In this document: one piece after another, positions 12,217 to 18,589 of the stretch
Layout: the number at the start of each line of letters is the position of its first letter
How positions within the stretch are numbered: the stretch's first letter is position 1
Source: an uncultured Pirellulaceae bacterium
GTDB taxonomy: Bacteria; Planctomycetota; Planctomycetia; Pirellulales; Pirellulaceae
DNA: 36,631 nt
Reading direction: 5' to 3'
NCBI GenBank assembly: GCA_938010615.1
Contig: CALLUY010000138.1
Coordinates: forward strand, 1-36,631
The notes under the pieces: model-generated
Databases searched by the model: none
Told to the model about the DNA's origin: nothing
The model's input: only the letters and a program-made list of their open reading frames with translations
Position numbers and translations under genes: made by a program

Positions 12217-13044
12217 CTAGAATTCAAACCGCATACCCATGAACAGATCGTGAGCATTGTAGGTACTGTTGTCTTGAAGTACGCCAAGTTGAGTCACTTC
12301 CAAATCCGTGGTCGAGAAATATCGGTACTCGACGTAGAAATTTGCTCTTTCAGTCAACTGCAATGAAACACCACCGATTGGCTGCCACGCGAACGAACCA
12401 GAATTTGCCAACTCAACGCCACTGTTTCGACTGAAGTCTGCGTCCACGTATGCATATCCAATTCCAATACCCACGTAAGGTTTCAGGAACTCAGAGGGAA
12501 CTTCGATGTCAATGATGAAGTTTTTCATGATCGACAGAACGCGAACTTCTCCGGTCAGCGGCTCGGGAATGACTGCGGGAAGGACGTCCGCACTGGATTC
12601 GTTTGAACGGTAGGTAAACTCAAATTCGCTACGCAGTCGTGTGCTATGACGACGTCCGTAGGCGATACCAACGGCGAAATCATCATCAAAGACGTCGCCG
12701 CCGTCGGCATCTGATCCAAACCCGACAATGCGGTTCCAACCACCAAACACACTGGCCGTCAGCTCAAAGTCCGGTGCAAATAGTCCCGCCAATGGGCGGG
12801 TCTCGTTGAAAGCATAGGTCGAGTCGCGATTGAATCTTCCACGGTTATCAAAAGTTGGAATGATTCGTCCAGCTCCACCTCGAACCCGCTGGGCGACTCG
12901 GCGAGCAGGTCCAACATTCGATGGCGCAACCATCGAAGACGCAAAGCCGTCACCCATCGAATAGCTCACTTGGCCATCGGCGAGCGAACAACATGCGTTG
13001 AGGAACAGGGCAGCGAGAAAACAGACGGTGGTGTTCAATTTCAT
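12217..13044 (-). CDS. outer membrane beta-barrel protein
   Basis: The 275-residue product has a signal peptide (MKLNTTVCFLAALFLNACCSLADG, cleavage probably near residue 24). From about residue 90 it shows amphipathic beta strands of alternating hydrophobic residues: FELTASVFGGWN, DFAVGIAYGRR, LRSEFEFTYRS, VRVLSIMKNFIIDI, LKPYVGIGIGYAYVDA, FAWQPIGGVSLQLTERANFYVEYRYFS, ending HDLFMGMRFEF with a terminal phenylalanine, the usual beta-barrel signature. This looks like an 8-stranded OmpA/OmpW-type barrel (OMP_b-brl class). The pattern supports an outer membrane in this organism. LNACC could also be read as a lipobox, so lipidation at Cys18 or Cys19 is an alternative. It is divergent from the next secreted protein gene; ligand unknown. 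Confidence 0.8.
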   Translation of the reverse strand: MKLNTTVCFLAALFLNACCSLADGQVSYSMGDGFASSMVAPSNVGPARRVAQRVRGGAGRIIPTFDNRGRFNRDSTYAFNETRPLAGLFAPDFELTASVFGGWNRIVGFGSDADGGDVFDDDFAVGIAYGRRHSTRLRSEFEFTYRSNESSADVLPAVIPEPLTGEVRVLSIMKNFIIDIEVPSEFLKPYVGIGIGYAYVDADFSRNSGVELANSGSFAWQPIGGVSLQLTERANFYVEYRYFSTTDLEVTQLGVLQDNSTYNAHDLFMGMRFEF

Positions 13045-13416: not shown

Positions 13417-14781
13417 ATGTTTTCCCCCAAAACAAAACACACGCTATTCGCTTTAACGCTTGCGATGGCGACGATATCCGCCGCAAATGTGGATGCTCAG
13501 AACACTGCATCAGCACAGTATCAAGCTAGAGTGGCTGCAATGCAGCAGGCTCAAGCCCGAGCCCAAATGCAGGTTCAACAGGTAGAGCCTCAACAGATTC
13601 GCGTTGCATCAAACGAACAGCAACGCGTCATTCGACAAGTTGTGCCGGCACAATCTGCCAGCACGCCAGTTCGAACGGCACCAGTTCGATCAGCCAGAAC
13701 GTACCAACCGCGTCACACGCGAACGGCTCAGCTGATTACCGAAGGAAGTATTGTCGACGGCGGCGCTCCAATCATGGGAGAGACAGTTTTGTCTCAGCCG
13801 ATCATGGGCGGCAATGTCATCAGTGCACCAATGGAATCAGAAGTCGTTTACGGCAACGAAGTCGACCTGAGTGGATGCGACTCGTGCGGAGACTCTGGAA
13901 GTTACTTTACTGACGACTGCTGCGGACGTGGCGGTTGCCCAGATAACGCTCCTTGCTGGAGCGGTCCGCTGGGAAGAGCTTTGCGAAGTGGTAGTTACTT
14001 CTTCGGAGCAACAGCTTTTCGTCATCCCGCTTACACAAGCCCTGTTGGGACAGACTTGATTCACGATTGTAATTTTGGAGCTTACTACGGTTTCAACTTT
14101 GGAATTCCGCTATGCCGTCTATTTTGTGGTCGGCTATCGGGACAATTCGGAATGCGAAGCGTTCAATCGAATTTCGGCGGCAATGAGTTCTCAGACGTAG
14201 GCCGTGATCAACTTTTCATCACAGCCGGTCTCTACCGTCGAGTCGACTATGGATTGCAAGCTGGATTGGTCATCGACGTGTTGGCCGAAGAGTTTTTCGC
14301 CGAATCCGATGTCGCACAGCTTCGTGGAGAAGTTAGCTGGGCATATCCTACCGGAGCAGCTCTTGGATTCCGATTCACAAGCAGTCAGCAGAGCGATTCC
14401 AGCTCAGGTACTTTTAGTGGCACGCCATTTAGCGGTTTCGCTACCACAACGGACGAAAACTATCGCATCTTCTTGCGGAAGGCAGTCGCCACAGGTGGAT
14501 GGGAAGAAATCTTTGCAGGATGGACCAGTGAAGAACACTTCGCTATTGGAGCGGACTTTGATCTTCCGGTTGCTCAATACATGGCCTTGCAAGCGGGAGT
14601 CGCTTATTACCTCAGCGATGAGGGAGCTCCGAACACAAACCTCGGGTCAACGCGAGTGGAAGACTCTTTCAACATCTACGTCGGATTCGCGTTCCGTCCT
14701 CAAGGTCGAGATTACTATCGGTCATACGATCGTCCATTGTTGCCAGTTGCTGATAACTGCACGATGCTGATTCGTCGATAG
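13417..14781 (+). CDS. secreted planctomycete beta-barrel-like protein with Gln- and Cys-rich N-terminal region
   Basis: The 454-residue product starts with a signal peptide (to about VDAQ, residue 28), then a Gln/Ala/Arg-rich low-complexity stretch (about 30-105), then short Gly/Met repeats (GGAPIMGETV, QPIMGGNVIS) and a Cys cluster (about 150-190: CDSC, CC, C, C). The remainder (about 190-435) alternates strands such as YYGFNFGIPLCRLFCGRLSGQFGMRS, LFITAGLYRRVDYGLQAGLVIDVL and QYMALQAGVAYYLS, consistent with a beta-barrel or beta-sandwich in the outer envelope. I believe it belongs to a planctomycete-restricted secreted family but cannot name it safely. Cys-rich and GG(x)IMGG-like segments resemble those of the YTV protein encoded convergently downstream; the two share a bidirectional terminator. 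Role in the wall or outer membrane is inferred. Confidence 0.75.
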   Translation: MFSPKTKHTLFALTLAMATISAANVDAQNTASAQYQARVAAMQQAQARAQMQVQQVEPQQIRVASNEQQRVIRQVVPAQSASTPVRTAPVRSARTYQPRHTRTAQLITEGSIVDGGAPIMGETVLSQPIMGGNVISAPMESEVVYGNEVDLSGCDSCGDSGSYFTDDCCGRGGCPDNAPCWSGPLGRALRSGSYFFGATAFRHPAYTSPVGTDLIHDCNFGAYYGFNFGIPLCRLFCGRLSGQFGMRSVQSNFGGNEFSDVGRDQLFITAGLYRRVDYGLQAGLVIDVLAEEFFAESDVAQLRGEVSWAYPTGAALGFRFTSSQQSDSSSGTFSGTPFSGFATTTDENYRIFLRKAVATGGWEEIFAGWTSEEHFAIGADFDLPVAQYMALQAGVAYYLSDEGAPNTNLGSTRVEDSFNIYVGFAFRPQGRDYYRSYDRPLLPVADNCTMLIRR

Positions 14782-14918: not shown

Positions 14919-17900
14919 CTAGTTGCAACCGCAGCGTGAACGACGGCTACCAAGACGGCAACCCTTGAACAAACGGCAACCGCCACCAAGACGTGAACCG
15001 AGGCCAGCACCAGCACCACAACCGCCAGCAGCACCGCCACCAACGCTTACGTAGCTTCCAGCACCACCAGAAACAGCAGCAGCAACTGGAGCACCGAATG
15101 AAGCACCGTAAGATGCACCATCAAGAACTGCACCAGCTGAACCAGCACCACCGTCGATGATTGCGCCACCATTAACAGGAGCTCCGAATGAGCCTCCGTC
15201 CATGATCGCACCACCAACAGGAGCACCCATAACGCCACCGTCCATGATAGCTCCACCGACAGGAGCGCCCATGACGCCACCATCGATAACAGAACCACCC
15301 ATGCCACCATCAATGACAGTTCCGCCCATTGCTGGAGCAGACATCATTGCTGGAGCAGCCATAGATGCACCACAGCCACTGTTGACAACAACAGGAACTG
15401 AGATGGTCTTAGGAACACGTGTGCATACCTGGTAAGGAACTTGCTCAGTGTAAGTCTCTGGAACCTGAACTGTGAAGTTCCGGGTACGAGTCTGTGGCTG
15501 AGAAGTCATTACTGTAACGGTACGTGTGCGAGTCTGTGGAACCTGTACTGTGTAAGGAACTTCGCGTGTGCGAGTTTCTTGACGTGATTTCTGAACAGCA
15601 ACTGTACGAGACTTAGTTTCAGTCTTGTAAGTTGTGAAAGGAACCGTACGAGTACGAGTTTCAAGACGAGTTTTAGTAACGTTGTACGTACGAGTACGAG
15701 TTTCAGAGCGTTGCTTCTGAACAGCAACAGTCCGCTGACGAGTCTCAGTACGCTGACGAGTAACAGGAACTGTACGAGTACGAGTTTCAGTGCGTGTGCG
15801 CTGAACAGGTACCTGACGTGTACGAGCTTCTGTCTTCATCTTTGTAACAGCAACAGTACGAGTGCGTGTCTCAAGACGAGTACGCTGAACTGGAACCTGA
15901 CGAGTACGAGTCTCAGTTCGTGACTTCTGAACTTGAGTTGTACGCTGACGAGTTTCCATCTTCGTGCGAGTTACTGGAACCTGACGAGTACGAGTTTCAG
16001 TGCGAGTACGCTGAACTGGAACAGTACGTGTCTTAGTTTCAACGCGAGTACGCTGAACAGGAACTTGACGAGTACGAGTTTCAGTCTTCATACGCTGAAC
16101 TGGAACCTGACGAGTACGAGTTTCCATGCGAGTGCGAGTTACTGGAGTCGTACGAGTACGAGTTTCAGTTCTGCAACGCTGTACAGCAACCATACGTTGA
16201 CGAGTCTCAGTACGGTAAGAAGTTTGGTTAACCATGCGAGTCTGAGTCTGAGGAACGTTAACAGTCACATTGTATGTGTACTGCTGTGGAACCTGACGAT
16301 TCATTGTCACTTGGTAAGGAACTTGCTGCTGAACGCGACGTGGAACGTAAACGCGAGTAGTAACAGTCTGGTAAGAAGGACCACAACCGCCGCCACTTAC
16401 AACAGCACCGCCGCCGTAAGAACCACCAGCTCCGCCAGCGAGAATTCCGCCGCCGAGAAGTCCGCCGCCAGAACCGCATCCACCGCCACAAGCTGATCCG
16501 CATCCACCACAGCTGCTTGCGCAACCACAGCTAGAGCAACCACAGCTTGAACGTGCACGACATCCGCCACCACCAAGAAGGCCACATCCGCCGCCGCCGA
16601 AGATTCCTCCGCCGCCGCCGAGACCAGCACCACCGCTAACAACTCCGCCGCCACCGTAAGAAACAACACCGCTGTTTACAGGAACAACACGAGTTACGTT
16701 CTGGAATGAACCAGCATCAACGCACTGTGTGCGGTAACGAGTAACAGTGTAAGGCTGACAAACCATACGAGTCGCAGTTCGCTGCTGAGTTGTTGGAACC
16801 ATGACTGTGTAGTTCTGTGCGACCTGAGTCGTAACAGGAACTTGAACAGTGTAAGGCTGTGCAACTTGCTCAGTGTAAGGAACTTGAACTGTGTAGTTCG
16901 AAGTAACGTTTTCAGTGTAAGGAACGCTAACCTGGTACGACTGAGTGATGTTCTCAGTGTAAGGAACCTGAACTGTGTAGTTCTGGGCAACCATTTCCTG
17001 GTAAGGAACTGTAACCTGATAAGTTTGAGTAGTGTTCTCAGTGTATGGAACCTGAACTGTGTAGTTCTGAGTTGTCATTTCCGTGTAAGGAACTGAGACC
17101 TGGTAAGACTGAGTAACGTTTTCAGTGTATGGAACCTGAACTGTGTAGTTCTGAGTTGTCATTTCCTGGTAAGGAACGCTTACTTGATAGTTCTGAGAAA
17201 CATTCTCAGTGTAAGGAACCTGAACGTTGTAAGTCTGAGTAGTCATTTCAGTGTAAGGAACAGTAACCTGGAACGACTGAGTAGTGTTCTCAGTGTAAGG
17301 AACCTGAACCGTGTAGTTCTGAGTAACGTTCTCAGTGTAGGGAACCATAACTGTGTAGTTCTGAGAAACAGGCTCAGTGTAAGGAACGCTTACAGAGTAA
17401 GATTCTTCACGAGTCTGCTGAACAGGAACAGTTACGTTGTACTGCTGAGTGACATTTTCAGTGTAAGGCACTGTAACGCTGTAAGACTCAGTTCGTGTGC
17501 GTGGCTCAGACACCATGACGGTGTAGTTCTGAGTTTGCTGAACTGGAACTTGAACGTTCACAGTGTAATTCTGTGTGCGAGTTTCAGTACGCATACGAGT
17601 ACGTGTAACTGTTCGCATCTGAGTAGTCATTTGGCTTTGGTAGATCGTACGAGTTTCGTAACGAATTGATTGACCGCAGCATCCGCCGCCACCAACTGCA
17701 CCGCCATCGACGATACCGCCCATGACTGCACCACCGGCTGCGCCGATAACTTCTCCGCCGCCGACGATAGCTCCACCGTCAACCATGCCGCCGGACATCA
17801 TGCCAGCTCCACCGTCAACAACTCCGCCGCCGTATGAAACGCCGCTAGACATTCCATCGTATACCATTCCACCCGCGTTATACGGGTTAACTACAGAGCT

Positions 17901-18026
17901 TCCGTAGCAATCTCCACATGGTGCAACAACTTGGCCGCAACCACATGGTGTGTCAGCGTTGGCAGTAGTTGACGCAAAAGATGCGACAACACACGCTACC
18001 AACATGCCGAAAAAACGCTTCGACAT
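14919..18026 (-). CDS. YTV-repeat cell envelope protein with Tyr-type and Arg-type 14-residue repeats
   Basis: The 1035-residue product has a signal peptide (cleavage near ANA-DT, residue 25), a Gly/Met/Cys-rich segment (28-118), 19 tandem 14-residue units of the form NYTVQVPYTENVTQ (153-418), a Gly/Cys-rich linker (about 451-550), 18 tandem 14-residue units of the form ETRTRQVPVQRTRT (607-858), and a Gly/Ala tail with three 14- to 15-residue DGGVMGAPVGGAIM-like repeats (915-957) ending in a basic Cys-containing tip (RSRCGCN). The first block is the planctomycete-specific YTV repeat (Pfam YTV), known from Rhodopirellula and thought to belong to the protein-rich cell wall. The many cysteines (about 25-30) suggest disulfide cross-linking. 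An AGGAGGA ribosome binding site, unusually strong for this window, suggests high expression. Secretion and structural role are inferred. Confidence 0.9.
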   Translation of the reverse strand: MSKRFFGMLVACVVASFASTTANADTPCGCGQVVAPCGDCYGSSVVNPYNAGGMVYDGMSSGVSYGGGVVDGGAGMMSGGMVDGGAIVGGGEVIGAAGGAVMGGIVDGGAVGGGGCCGQSIRYETRTIYQSQMTTQMRTVTRTRMRTETRTQNYTVNVQVPVQQTQNYTVMVSEPRTRTESYSVTVPYTENVTQQYNVTVPVQQTREESYSVSVPYTEPVSQNYTVMVPYTENVTQNYTVQVPYTENTTQSFQVTVPYTEMTTQTYNVQVPYTENVSQNYQVSVPYQEMTTQNYTVQVPYTENVTQSYQVSVPYTEMTTQNYTVQVPYTENTTQTYQVTVPYQEMVAQNYTVQVPYTENITQSYQVSVPYTENVTSNYTVQVPYTEQVAQPYTVQVPVTTQVAQNYTVMVPTTQQRTATRMVCQPYTVTRYRTQCVDAGSFQNVTRVVPVNSGVVSYGGGGVVSGGAGLGGGGGIFGGGGCGLLGGGGCRARSSCGCSSCGCASSCGGCGSACGGGCGSGGGLLGGGILAGGAGGSYGGGAVVSGGGCGPSYQTVTTRVYVPRRVQQQVPYQVTMNRQVPQQYTYNVTVNVPQTQTRMVNQTSYRTETRQRMVAVQRCRTETRTRTTPVTRTRMETRTRQVPVQRMKTETRTRQVPVQRTRVETKTRTVPVQRTRTETRTRQVPVTRTKMETRQRTTQVQKSRTETRTRQVPVQRTRLETRTRTVAVTKMKTEARTRQVPVQRTRTETRTRTVPVTRQRTETRQRTVAVQKQRSETRTRTYNVTKTRLETRTRTVPFTTYKTETKSRTVAVQKSRQETRTREVPYTVQVPQTRTRTVTVMTSQPQTRTRNFTVQVPETYTEQVPYQVCTRVPKTISVPVVVNSGCGASMAAPAMMSAPAMGGTVIDGGMGGSVIDGGVMGAPVGGAIMDGGVMGAPVGGAIMDGGSFGAPVNGGAIIDGGAGSAGAVLDGASYGASFGAPVAAAVSGGAGSYVSVGGGAAGGCGAGAGLGSRLGGGCRLFKGCRLGSRRSRCGCN
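15156..15284 (-). repeat. C-terminal Gly/Ala repeats with 14-residue period
   Basis: Residues 915-957 contain two identical units DGGVMGAPVGGAIM and a third diverged unit of 15 residues (DGGSFGAPVNGGAII). The N-terminal region of the same protein has looser relatives (MSGGMVDGGAIVGG). Confidence 0.85.
15453..16208 (-). repeat. RTR repeat block: 18 units of 42 bp
   Basis: Residues 607-858 divide into 18 consecutive 14-residue units such as ETRTRQVPVQRTRT, ETKTRTVPVQRTRT and ETRQRTVAVQKQRS; the last two start QTRTR. Each central unit carries four to six Arg/Lys. Re-phased by one residue, the unit places Val-Pro exactly where the YTV unit has it. Confidence 0.92.
16377..16676 (-). repeat. Gly/Cys-rich low-complexity linker within the YTV protein
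   Basis: Residues about 451-550 are mostly glycine with about twelve cysteines, including CGCSSCGCASSCGGCGSACG. It separates the tyrosine-type and arginine-type repeat blocks and could be a flexible, cross-linkable hinge. Confidence 0.85.
16773..17570 (-). repeat. YTV repeat block: 19 units of 42 bp
   Basis: Residues 153-418 divide without gaps into 19 units of exactly 14 residues, such as SYSVTVPYTENVTQ, NYTVQVPYTENTTQ and TYQVTVPYQEMVAQ. Position 2 is aromatic (Tyr, once Phe) in every unit and position 4 is Val in every unit; Val-Pro is at positions 6-7 in nearly all. Units partly alternate between an NYTVQV and an SYQVSV/TYQVTV type, suggesting an 84-bp higher-order period. Confidence 0.93.
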
Positions 18027-18040: not shown

Positions 18041-18589
18041 CGAACGAGACTCAAACAAATTTCAATCGATATCACCACGATGTGACATCACGAATTCAAA
18101 ACAAAGGGCAAAATCAACTCATCGTTGATTCCGCGGTGATACGCAAAAACAGGGCGATTGTTCCCAGTTCTCATCGCGGCAGATTCTAACTAGCCCGCTA
18201 GGACTGTCAATCAGCCACATTTATGCCTACCACCGCAGCTTGCGCGAACGCTGAACCCAGCTTTTCCCGCAAACCCATTGATTCGAGCTATAACTTAACC
18301 TAGCCCACGCCGTTTTCCATGTTTTACAAACTACTTTCGCAAAATAATCCGGATTTTCTTCGTAGCCTACCTACAGCCCATTTTTCCGTCTTTTTACCGG
18401 ATCGGTTTACGTTTACACCGCCGGACACCGAAGCGGTAACCTTTTACTGCCTGTTGCTGTTTTGAATCACTCCCCGCTAATGTCAGTGTTTCCCGGGTTA
18501 TACGCCATTAGAGTTAGCCTCCGACGCCATTTTCGATCCGAACCAACTGCTTCTGACAATCCTCAACCTCAATTTATCGAGCTCAAAAT
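18041..18589. other. divergent intergenic region upstream of the YTV gene
   Basis: About 550 bases lie between the YTV gene and the PepSY-type gene. No open frame is convincing (one of 79 codons at 17950-18189 overlaps the YTV start antisense). Promoters for both genes must be here; I could not choose a -35/-10 pair. A small hairpin, CTAGC-CC-GCTAG, lies near 18191-18202. Confidence 0.4.

Follow-up and report, generated by a model that had tools for sequence, protein, structure and literature searches.

The window analysed here is a stretch of 36,631 nucleotides from an uncultured Pirellulaceae bacterium (GenBank assembly GCA_938010615.1, contig CALLUY010000138.1), and its minus strand encodes a protein with two long blocks of 14-residue repeats, hereafter arms, on either side of a Gly/Cys-rich hinge (Table 1). 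The protein is a member of the YTV family (PF07639), a known planctomycete cell wall family, as an earlier, sequence-only reading of this DNA had proposed: the whole protein matches the family model in nine stretches with 99.3 bits (E 1.2e-28), the curated cut-off being 21. We suggest that it is a secreted wall protein in which each arm forms one continuous beta-strand, and that the chain folds back so that the two arms pair antiparallel and in register, a reading to which we give a probability of about 0.6.

Table 1. The two-armed YTV gene, the parts of its protein and possible flanking signals in the window.
Feature	Residues	Position	Strand	Basis
Two-armed YTV protein, putative wall protein	1035 aa	14919..18026	minus	open reading frame
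Signal-like N-terminus	1-24	17955..18026	minus	Lys/Arg, hydrophobic core, ANA before DTPCG; boundary by eye
N-terminal Gly/Cys-rich segment	25-111	17694..17954	minus	sequence
Arm 1 lead-in (RYETRTIYQSQ...)	112-152	17571..17693	minus	sequence
Arm 1, 19 x 14 aa, NYTVQVPYTENVTQ type	153-418	16773..17570	minus	sequence, anchor segmentation
Hinge, Gly/Cys-rich linker and approach to arm 2	419-606	16209..16772	minus	sequence
Arm 2, 18 x 14 aa, TRTRQVPVQRTRTE type	607-858	15453..16208	minus	sequence, anchor segmentation
Arm 2 end	859-881	15384..15452	minus	sequence
Gly/Ala/Cys-rich C-terminal tail	882-1035	14922..15383	minus	sequence
Terminator-like stem, 14 pairs, directly past the stop codon		14847..14877	minus	longest stem; 4 found, 4.1 expected from shuffles
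Possible promoter TTGACA-16-TAGAAT		18183..18210	minus	2 found, 2.8 expected from shuffles

The open reading frame, its coordinates, the division into 19 and 18 units of 14 residues and the shared Val-Pro register all proved to be as the sequence-only reading had described them. Identity at a lag of 14 residues is 0.56 in the first block and 0.54 in the second, and at a lag of 28 it is 0.64 and 0.61; among lags other than multiples of 14 the best value is 0.22 and 0.36, respectively. An independent segmentation by anchors divides each arm into 18 consecutive steps of exactly 14, and by eye two units at the start of arm 1 and three at the end of arm 2 look irregular. The column make-up, computed on 17 of the 19 units of block 1 and 16 of the 18 of block 2, bears out the reported switch at positions 2, 4, 10 and 12, from Tyr (94%), Val (100%), Glu (82%) and Val (53%) in arm 1 to Arg (88%), Arg (100%), Arg plus Lys (56 and 31%) and Arg plus Lys (69 and 25%) in arm 2. 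From this switch it had been concluded that the Arg block looks like a YTV block with one face recoloured. A comparison of the two block profiles is indeed best at the register proposed for them (p = 0.006 against free permutation of the columns, 3001 permutations), but significance is lost when the odd/even alternation is kept by permuting odd and even columns apart (p = 0.18), and in the window protein alone a mirrored unit profile fits slightly better than that register (-11.4 against -16.0). The window protein by itself thus does not clearly show a relation between its blocks beyond composition, and relatives are needed; by way of the relatives' arm consensuses, YTVCKPVWETKT and YKVCKMVPEQRV, the recolouring becomes plausible.

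Within each arm of the window protein, most residue types keep to one face of an alternating strand. This holds in arm 1 for every Tyr (32/32), Val (51/51), Asn (20/20) and Pro (21/21), and in arm 2 for Arg (56/57), Lys (11/11), Val (40/41) and Pro (15/15), with Thr mostly one-faced in both (46/53 and 73/78). Gly and Asp are absent from both arms, and in the 14- and 16-residue sets of relatives introduced below their mean shares of the arms are 0.10% and 0.02% for Gly and 0.31% and 0.49% for Asp. The protein has 28 Cys, of which only one lies within the two repeat blocks. Arm 1 with its flank (residues 112-419) matches the YTV model clearly, at 147.5 bits (E 1.1e-43); the arm 2 stretch (residues 563-882), Arg-rich and with a single Cys in its repeat block, differs from the family in reaching only 17.5 bits, under the Pfam cut-off. 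Units of 14 residues in both arms also set the window protein apart from most of the segmented relatives, which have units of 16.

YTV matches over the cut-off were found in all 40 genomes of the own genome and its 39 relatives, and in none of 14 control genomes; the five relatives that carry names are uncultured Pirellulaceae. The window protein itself is matched in 26 of 28 same-genus genomes, the G040 match being 91% identical across residues 1-931 and the G015 match 82% across 1-1035. From the same-genus and order-level genomes we took 102 repeat open reading frames (ORFs), of which 77 were segmented with common anchors (60 in a 16-residue set and 17 in a 14-residue set, the window protein included). 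Seven ORFs without a hinge motif and three with open ends were dropped, 15 more (two of type B, 12 of a degenerate type C, and L051) were left out of the common-anchor, charge and parity, and pair-sum counts, and two that run to an edge of the retrieved contig were kept (the N terminus of L095 and the C terminus of L110 lie there). A K.VW.P-like hinge motif is matched as a pattern in 77 of the 102; the window hinge has TRVYVP at the position of this motif and does not match the pattern itself.

A search for further proteins having both blocks had been called for, and the two-arm plan does prove to be shared among relatives. Of the 77 proteins, 51 have a modal unit length of 16 in both arms and 18 one of 14 in both; in eight the modes are 14/16, and we read these eight as near-ties within mixed 14/16 patterns that are present in both arms, so that there is no clear case among the 77 of a homologue whose blocks differ in unit length. 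Twenty proteins from outside the order have mostly 16-residue steps in each arm. It follows from both samples that period goes with period across the hinge. Unit steps are also even in 2180 of 2181 cases in the 77 proteins, a count in which odd steps were permitted.

Both 14-residue (S) and 16-residue (L) units occur in some relatives, whose arm 2 tends to repeat the unit order of arm 1 backwards: the two orders compared are LSLSLSSLSLLSLLLL and LSLSLSSLSLLSLLL in L110, and LLLLSLLLSLLSLLLL and LLLLSLLLSLLSLLLLL in L122. In the common-anchor count, for which 25 of 60 proteins qualify (at least eight steps and two short units per arm, best ungapped offset within three steps), the reversed order matches 0.954 of units (15 proteins perfectly) and the forward order 0.879 (10 perfectly), against 0.783 for arms taken from different proteins; protein by protein, the reversed order is better in nine, equal in 13 and worse in three. 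With a segmentation trained arm by arm (33 qualifying of 99) the values are 0.945 reversed, 0.875 forward and 0.760 shuffled, the reversed order being better in 16 proteins, equal in 13 and worse in four. Pairs of coinciding anchors tell the same story in 29 proteins, 16 with a mirror peak above the forward one, 12 with a tie and one with a lower mirror peak (p = 0.00026 in a Wilcoxon test that treats related proteins as independent), and with plain regular-expression anchors, where the mirror peak is higher in seven, equal in 22 and lower in none (p = 0.008). Among ten proteins picked for inspection of their anchor sums, the sums of paired anchors are constant despite mixed units in L122 (17/17), L106 (18/20) and L110 (16/17), and constant also in L137 (10/10), L163 (12/13), L160 (18/19) and the self-palindromic L144 (19/19); the units of L102, inspected with them, are all of 16. 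Where the mirror match holds, register is kept to the residue across 150-300 residues. Perfect reversed matches occur in nine of nine proteins from genomes of at most 20 contigs and in six of 16 from more fragmented ones (contig numbers being rounded values), a shortfall to be expected if near-identical repeats collapse in assembly.

It could be argued that none of this requires pairing, and that the arms are simply copies of each other whose equal unit length reflects duplication and gene conversion. The consensuses of the two arms are similar, the starts and ends of the arms of L106 look alike by eye, and many patterns fit forward as well as reversed. Copying nevertheless predicts orders that match forward, and the reversed order beats the forward one in all three tallies above (16:1 with 12 ties, 9:3 with 13 and 16:4 with 13). 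Copying also sits badly with a length difference among three related type-B proteins with 16-residue units: compared with L019, both L018 and L020 have an arm 1 that is 10 residues longer close to its start and an arm 2 that is 10 longer close to its end, that is, at opposite ends of the arms. L018 and L020 are alike, and this mirrored difference may be one event. We disfavour copying without pairing and regard it as very improbable.

The lengths of the arms also tend to change together. Within the lineage with 14-residue units, both arms have the same number of steps in 12 of 13 proteins, the window protein included, over a range from 14 to 20: 18/18 in the window protein, L083, L087, L097 and L114, 19/19 in one protein, 20/20 in three, 14/14 in two and 15/15 in one. 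On a tree of this set the number of arm-1 steps must have changed five times, the change in L089 counted. The tree was built without four of the 17 proteins (L111, L112, L178 and L179), since steps other than 14 occur; of these, L178 and L179 have 15 steps of 14 per arm, and L111 and L112 have one internal 12-residue step per arm, at roughly mirrored places. Regular-expression landmarks for the arm ends, which are incomplete in this set, unreliable across families and not relied on here, measure both arms in eight of 15 proteins, with a difference of one residue in seven and of 27 in L089. In the 60-protein set, 15 of 18 proteins from genomes of at most 20 contigs have arms that differ by no more than one unit. 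Residue covariance between the arms, taken with two end units trimmed, peaks at the mirrored offset with z 8.4 in the all-16 set (other offsets, whether reversed or forward, at most 4.1) and z 5.7 in the mixed set (others at most 3.7).

We propose that these regularities reflect a layout of arm 1, flexible Gly/Cys hinge and arm 2, in which each arm would be an uninterrupted, Gly-free alternating beta-strand of about 270 residues, some 90 nm long when fully extended. The chain would turn back at the hinge and arm 2 would lie antiparallel along arm 1, unit against unit, like a zipper. Arms held in register in this way require equal arm lengths and mirrored unit lengths. In an antiparallel beta-ribbon, Pro can be accommodated at non-hydrogen-bonded pairs alone, and such pairs come at every second residue; from this restriction, beta-sheet geometry would lead to even unit lengths and to coinciding Pro/Thr faces, and the coinciding faces would in turn place Tyr/Val/Glu opposite Arg/Lys/Val/Glu. 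One face of the ribbon would thus carry mainly Thr, Pro and Asn, and the other Tyr/Val/Glu from arm 1 and Arg/Lys/Val/Glu from arm 2, an arrangement that would set Tyr/Glu opposite Arg on one face in the window's lineage. Hinges and tails, both rich in Cys, would link the ribbons into the wall, joined in relatives by Cys of the arms.

Alternatively, short hairpins could be stacked along each arm, as a beta-meander or a small beta-solenoid, with the two stacks packed antiparallel, face to face. A wide rung would then have to meet a wide rung, hence the matching unit lengths, and no strand of 90 nm would be called for. This arrangement accounts equally well for the mirrored order, the equal arm lengths and the even unit lengths, and a low-confidence model of L019 has strands in arm 2 that could pair as hairpins. 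Tight turns, however, usually use Gly, Asp or Asn, the first two of which are absent from the window arms and rare in both sets, and a turn made of two residues would reverse the face to which side chains point, yet most residue types stay one-faced. We consider stacked hairpins unlikely. A slightly stronger contender, though still an improbable one in our view, keeps the continuous strands and differs from our favoured explanation solely in pairing between rather than within molecules: arm 1 would lie antiparallel on arm 2 of a neighbour, and the resulting sheet would be staggered, its hinges acting as cross-link nodes. Such pairing imposes the same constraints on length and register, the findings above fit both arrangements alike, and wall proteins must associate between molecules in any case, as the material drawn on from one study of such walls suggests (PMC5287468). 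A variant in which arm 1 pairs with arm 1 is unlikely for proteins whose arm 1 lacks a self-palindromic order (0.73 in L110 and 0.71 in L149).

The chemistry of the arms is a different matter from their register. The sequence-only reading had pointed to two chemically opposite blocks that could pair through cation-pi contacts and salt bridges, and in the 14-residue set arm 1 is net negative and arm 2 net positive in 17 of 17 proteins (means -0.05 and +0.14 per residue). Among the 60 relatives whose units are of 16 residues or mixed, none has arms of opposite charge: both carry a net positive charge in every protein (means +0.08 and +0.14). We have hence rejected Tyr/Arg complementarity as a family rule; the opposition is a trait of the window's lineage, and only there is the cation-pi idea possible. 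The likelihood that blocks of equal pitch pair has, on the other hand, gained from the mirrored unit lengths, the lockstep arm lengths and the mirrored length difference of relatives. The antiparallel sense and the order of unit lengths are additions to what had been proposed before.

A number of observations weigh against continuous, fold-back pairing or narrow what can be said for it. The window units are all of 14 residues, so the mirrored order is seen in mixed-unit relatives and not in the window protein. Many of the mixed patterns are self-palindromic and uninformative on direction, that of L144 among them. Six of the nine perfect matches in well-assembled genomes are equally perfect forward and several share the pattern of one family (f7), so that only L106, L120 and L122 of this group indicate direction; there are unmatched units in L107, L125, L127, L160, L168 and L171, among others, and the sums of paired anchors drift by two residues in L107 and L168. 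As to arm lengths, L089 has unequal step numbers (20/18), the arms agree within one unit in only 24 of 42 proteins from fragmented genomes, with differences of up to 11, and two order-level proteins with 16-residue units only have 26/19 (L102) and 24/20 (L103) steps in arms 1 and 2; in the 20 proteins from outside the order the unit numbers of the arms agree only roughly. Without trimming, covariance in the all-16 set is 17.0 forward and 16.8 reversed, an equality that we attribute to special end units and because of which the covariance test rests on its trimmed version; in the 14-residue set the peak of 27.5 stands over a background of 8-20 that relatedness inflates, and position-pair covariance examined for the residue register gave no consistent antidiagonal. 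Face segregation has its exceptions in arm 1 of the window protein, where Gln occurs on both faces (21 and 18) and seven of 53 Thr lie on the opposite face.

Structure prediction offers no help to the ribbon either. AlphaFold runs of three sequences each gave no reliable model, with a mean predicted local distance difference test (pLDDT) score of 27 for residues 112-882 of the window protein and 28 for L019. In the window core, long strands at both ends fit a constant i+j of about 779, at a confidence that makes them meaningless, and we give them no weight; the strands of L019 are within arm 2 only. To our knowledge, no two-strand ribbon of 90 nm has been described.

Among solved structures, our search found no convincing relative: the four weak hits it returned, with E values from 0.0019 to 0.035, cover residues 61-195 (three hits) and 428-527 (one), and we read them as compositional. 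Fibrous proteins with repeats of about 12-15 residues and alternating strands are well known, in the form of the triple beta-spiral of adenovirus fibres and of small beta-helices; these depend on turn residues and are not known to match unit lengths between two arms of a single chain. The Pfam YTV model itself covers 43 positions, with neither two arms nor a hinge nor a mirrored unit order. A survey of repeat families lists YTV (D5SU36) among the modelled families without a solved structure, with a predicted template modelling score (TM-score) of 0.59, and the portion of its text examined describes no two arms or antiparallel matching for this contact-predicted model (PMC8078820). In the parts of the YTV literature covered, nothing was found on a fold, two arms, a hinge or a mirrored unit order. 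What would be new here is a previously unrecognised antiparallel architecture in a known family of wall proteins.

That the window protein is secreted and placed in the wall is suggested by its signal-like N-terminus, recognised by eye, and by the published location of relatives. The sections of the papers used here describe YTV proteins as cysteine-rich and as chief constituents of Gemmata walls boiled in sodium dodecyl sulfate (SDS) (PMC5287468), and as wall proteins that score highest in Tuwongella, in a paper that also cites previous work on Rhodopirellula (PMC8567305). Those of Tuwongella were in the SDS-soluble fraction (PMC8567305), a point that fits less well with ribbons linked into a wall. 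One YTV protein of Planctopirus falls, according to the part of that study consulted, within a planctomycete-restricted group of essential genes (PMC10632474).

Some further features of the locus and its genome may be recorded. The tail of the window protein has a repeat of its own, unlike those of the arms, of 42 base pairs and hence again 14 codons (GAPVGGAIMDGGVM), in about 3.5 copies at 15148-15299. Next to the gene, the window encodes a DUF6666 protein (PF20371, 230 bits; 13417-14781, plus strand), and beyond it an outer-membrane beta-barrel protein (12217-13044, minus strand) and an ATP-dependent DNA ligase-like protein of 498 residues (PF01068 and PF04679; 10670-12166, plus strand). Six neighbour genes were checked at 13 loci with short flanks; all six were found at L083 only, one at L087, and a weak galE match at L096. 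The own genome (G000) encodes more two-block proteins, C8 (over the YTV cut-off), C120 (borderline) and C134. The last of these, the paralogue L082, has 930 residues and the two-block plan with degenerate repeats, and scores 15.3 bits as a whole protein; its matches in order-level genomes are mostly partial, many of them near the hinge. C120, the paralogue L051, has 604 residues and degenerate repeats, with 19.2 bits as a whole and 23.7 bits for one stretch in the genome search. With the whole-protein scores of both under the cut-off, the YTV family is probably larger than its annotation.

Taken as a proposal for the group at large, our results raise the tentative picture, which we hold to be somewhat less probable than its negation, of a Planctomycetia wall woven from fold-back beta-ribbons of up to about 100 nm, with an antiparallel two-letter length code (14/16), arm length as a joint ruler and a face chemistry that varies by lineage. 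If this were true, arm length would be a tunable ruler that forces both arms to change together, and the faces of the ribbons would be fitted out differently in different lineages, with disulfides in many and Tyr/Glu against Arg in that of the window. Mirror-matched arms would turn a 43-residue motif into a concrete architecture, one that predicts cross-links at constant i+j and the tolerance of paired deletions where single deletions are not tolerated. Few cases would show as clearly how coevolving repeat lengths reveal a fold, and the fibre might perhaps be designable. For planctomycetes themselves, in one species of which a YTV gene ranks among the essential genes in the portion of the study consulted (PMC10632474), mirrored arms provide a testable idea of how a protein-rich wall is made.

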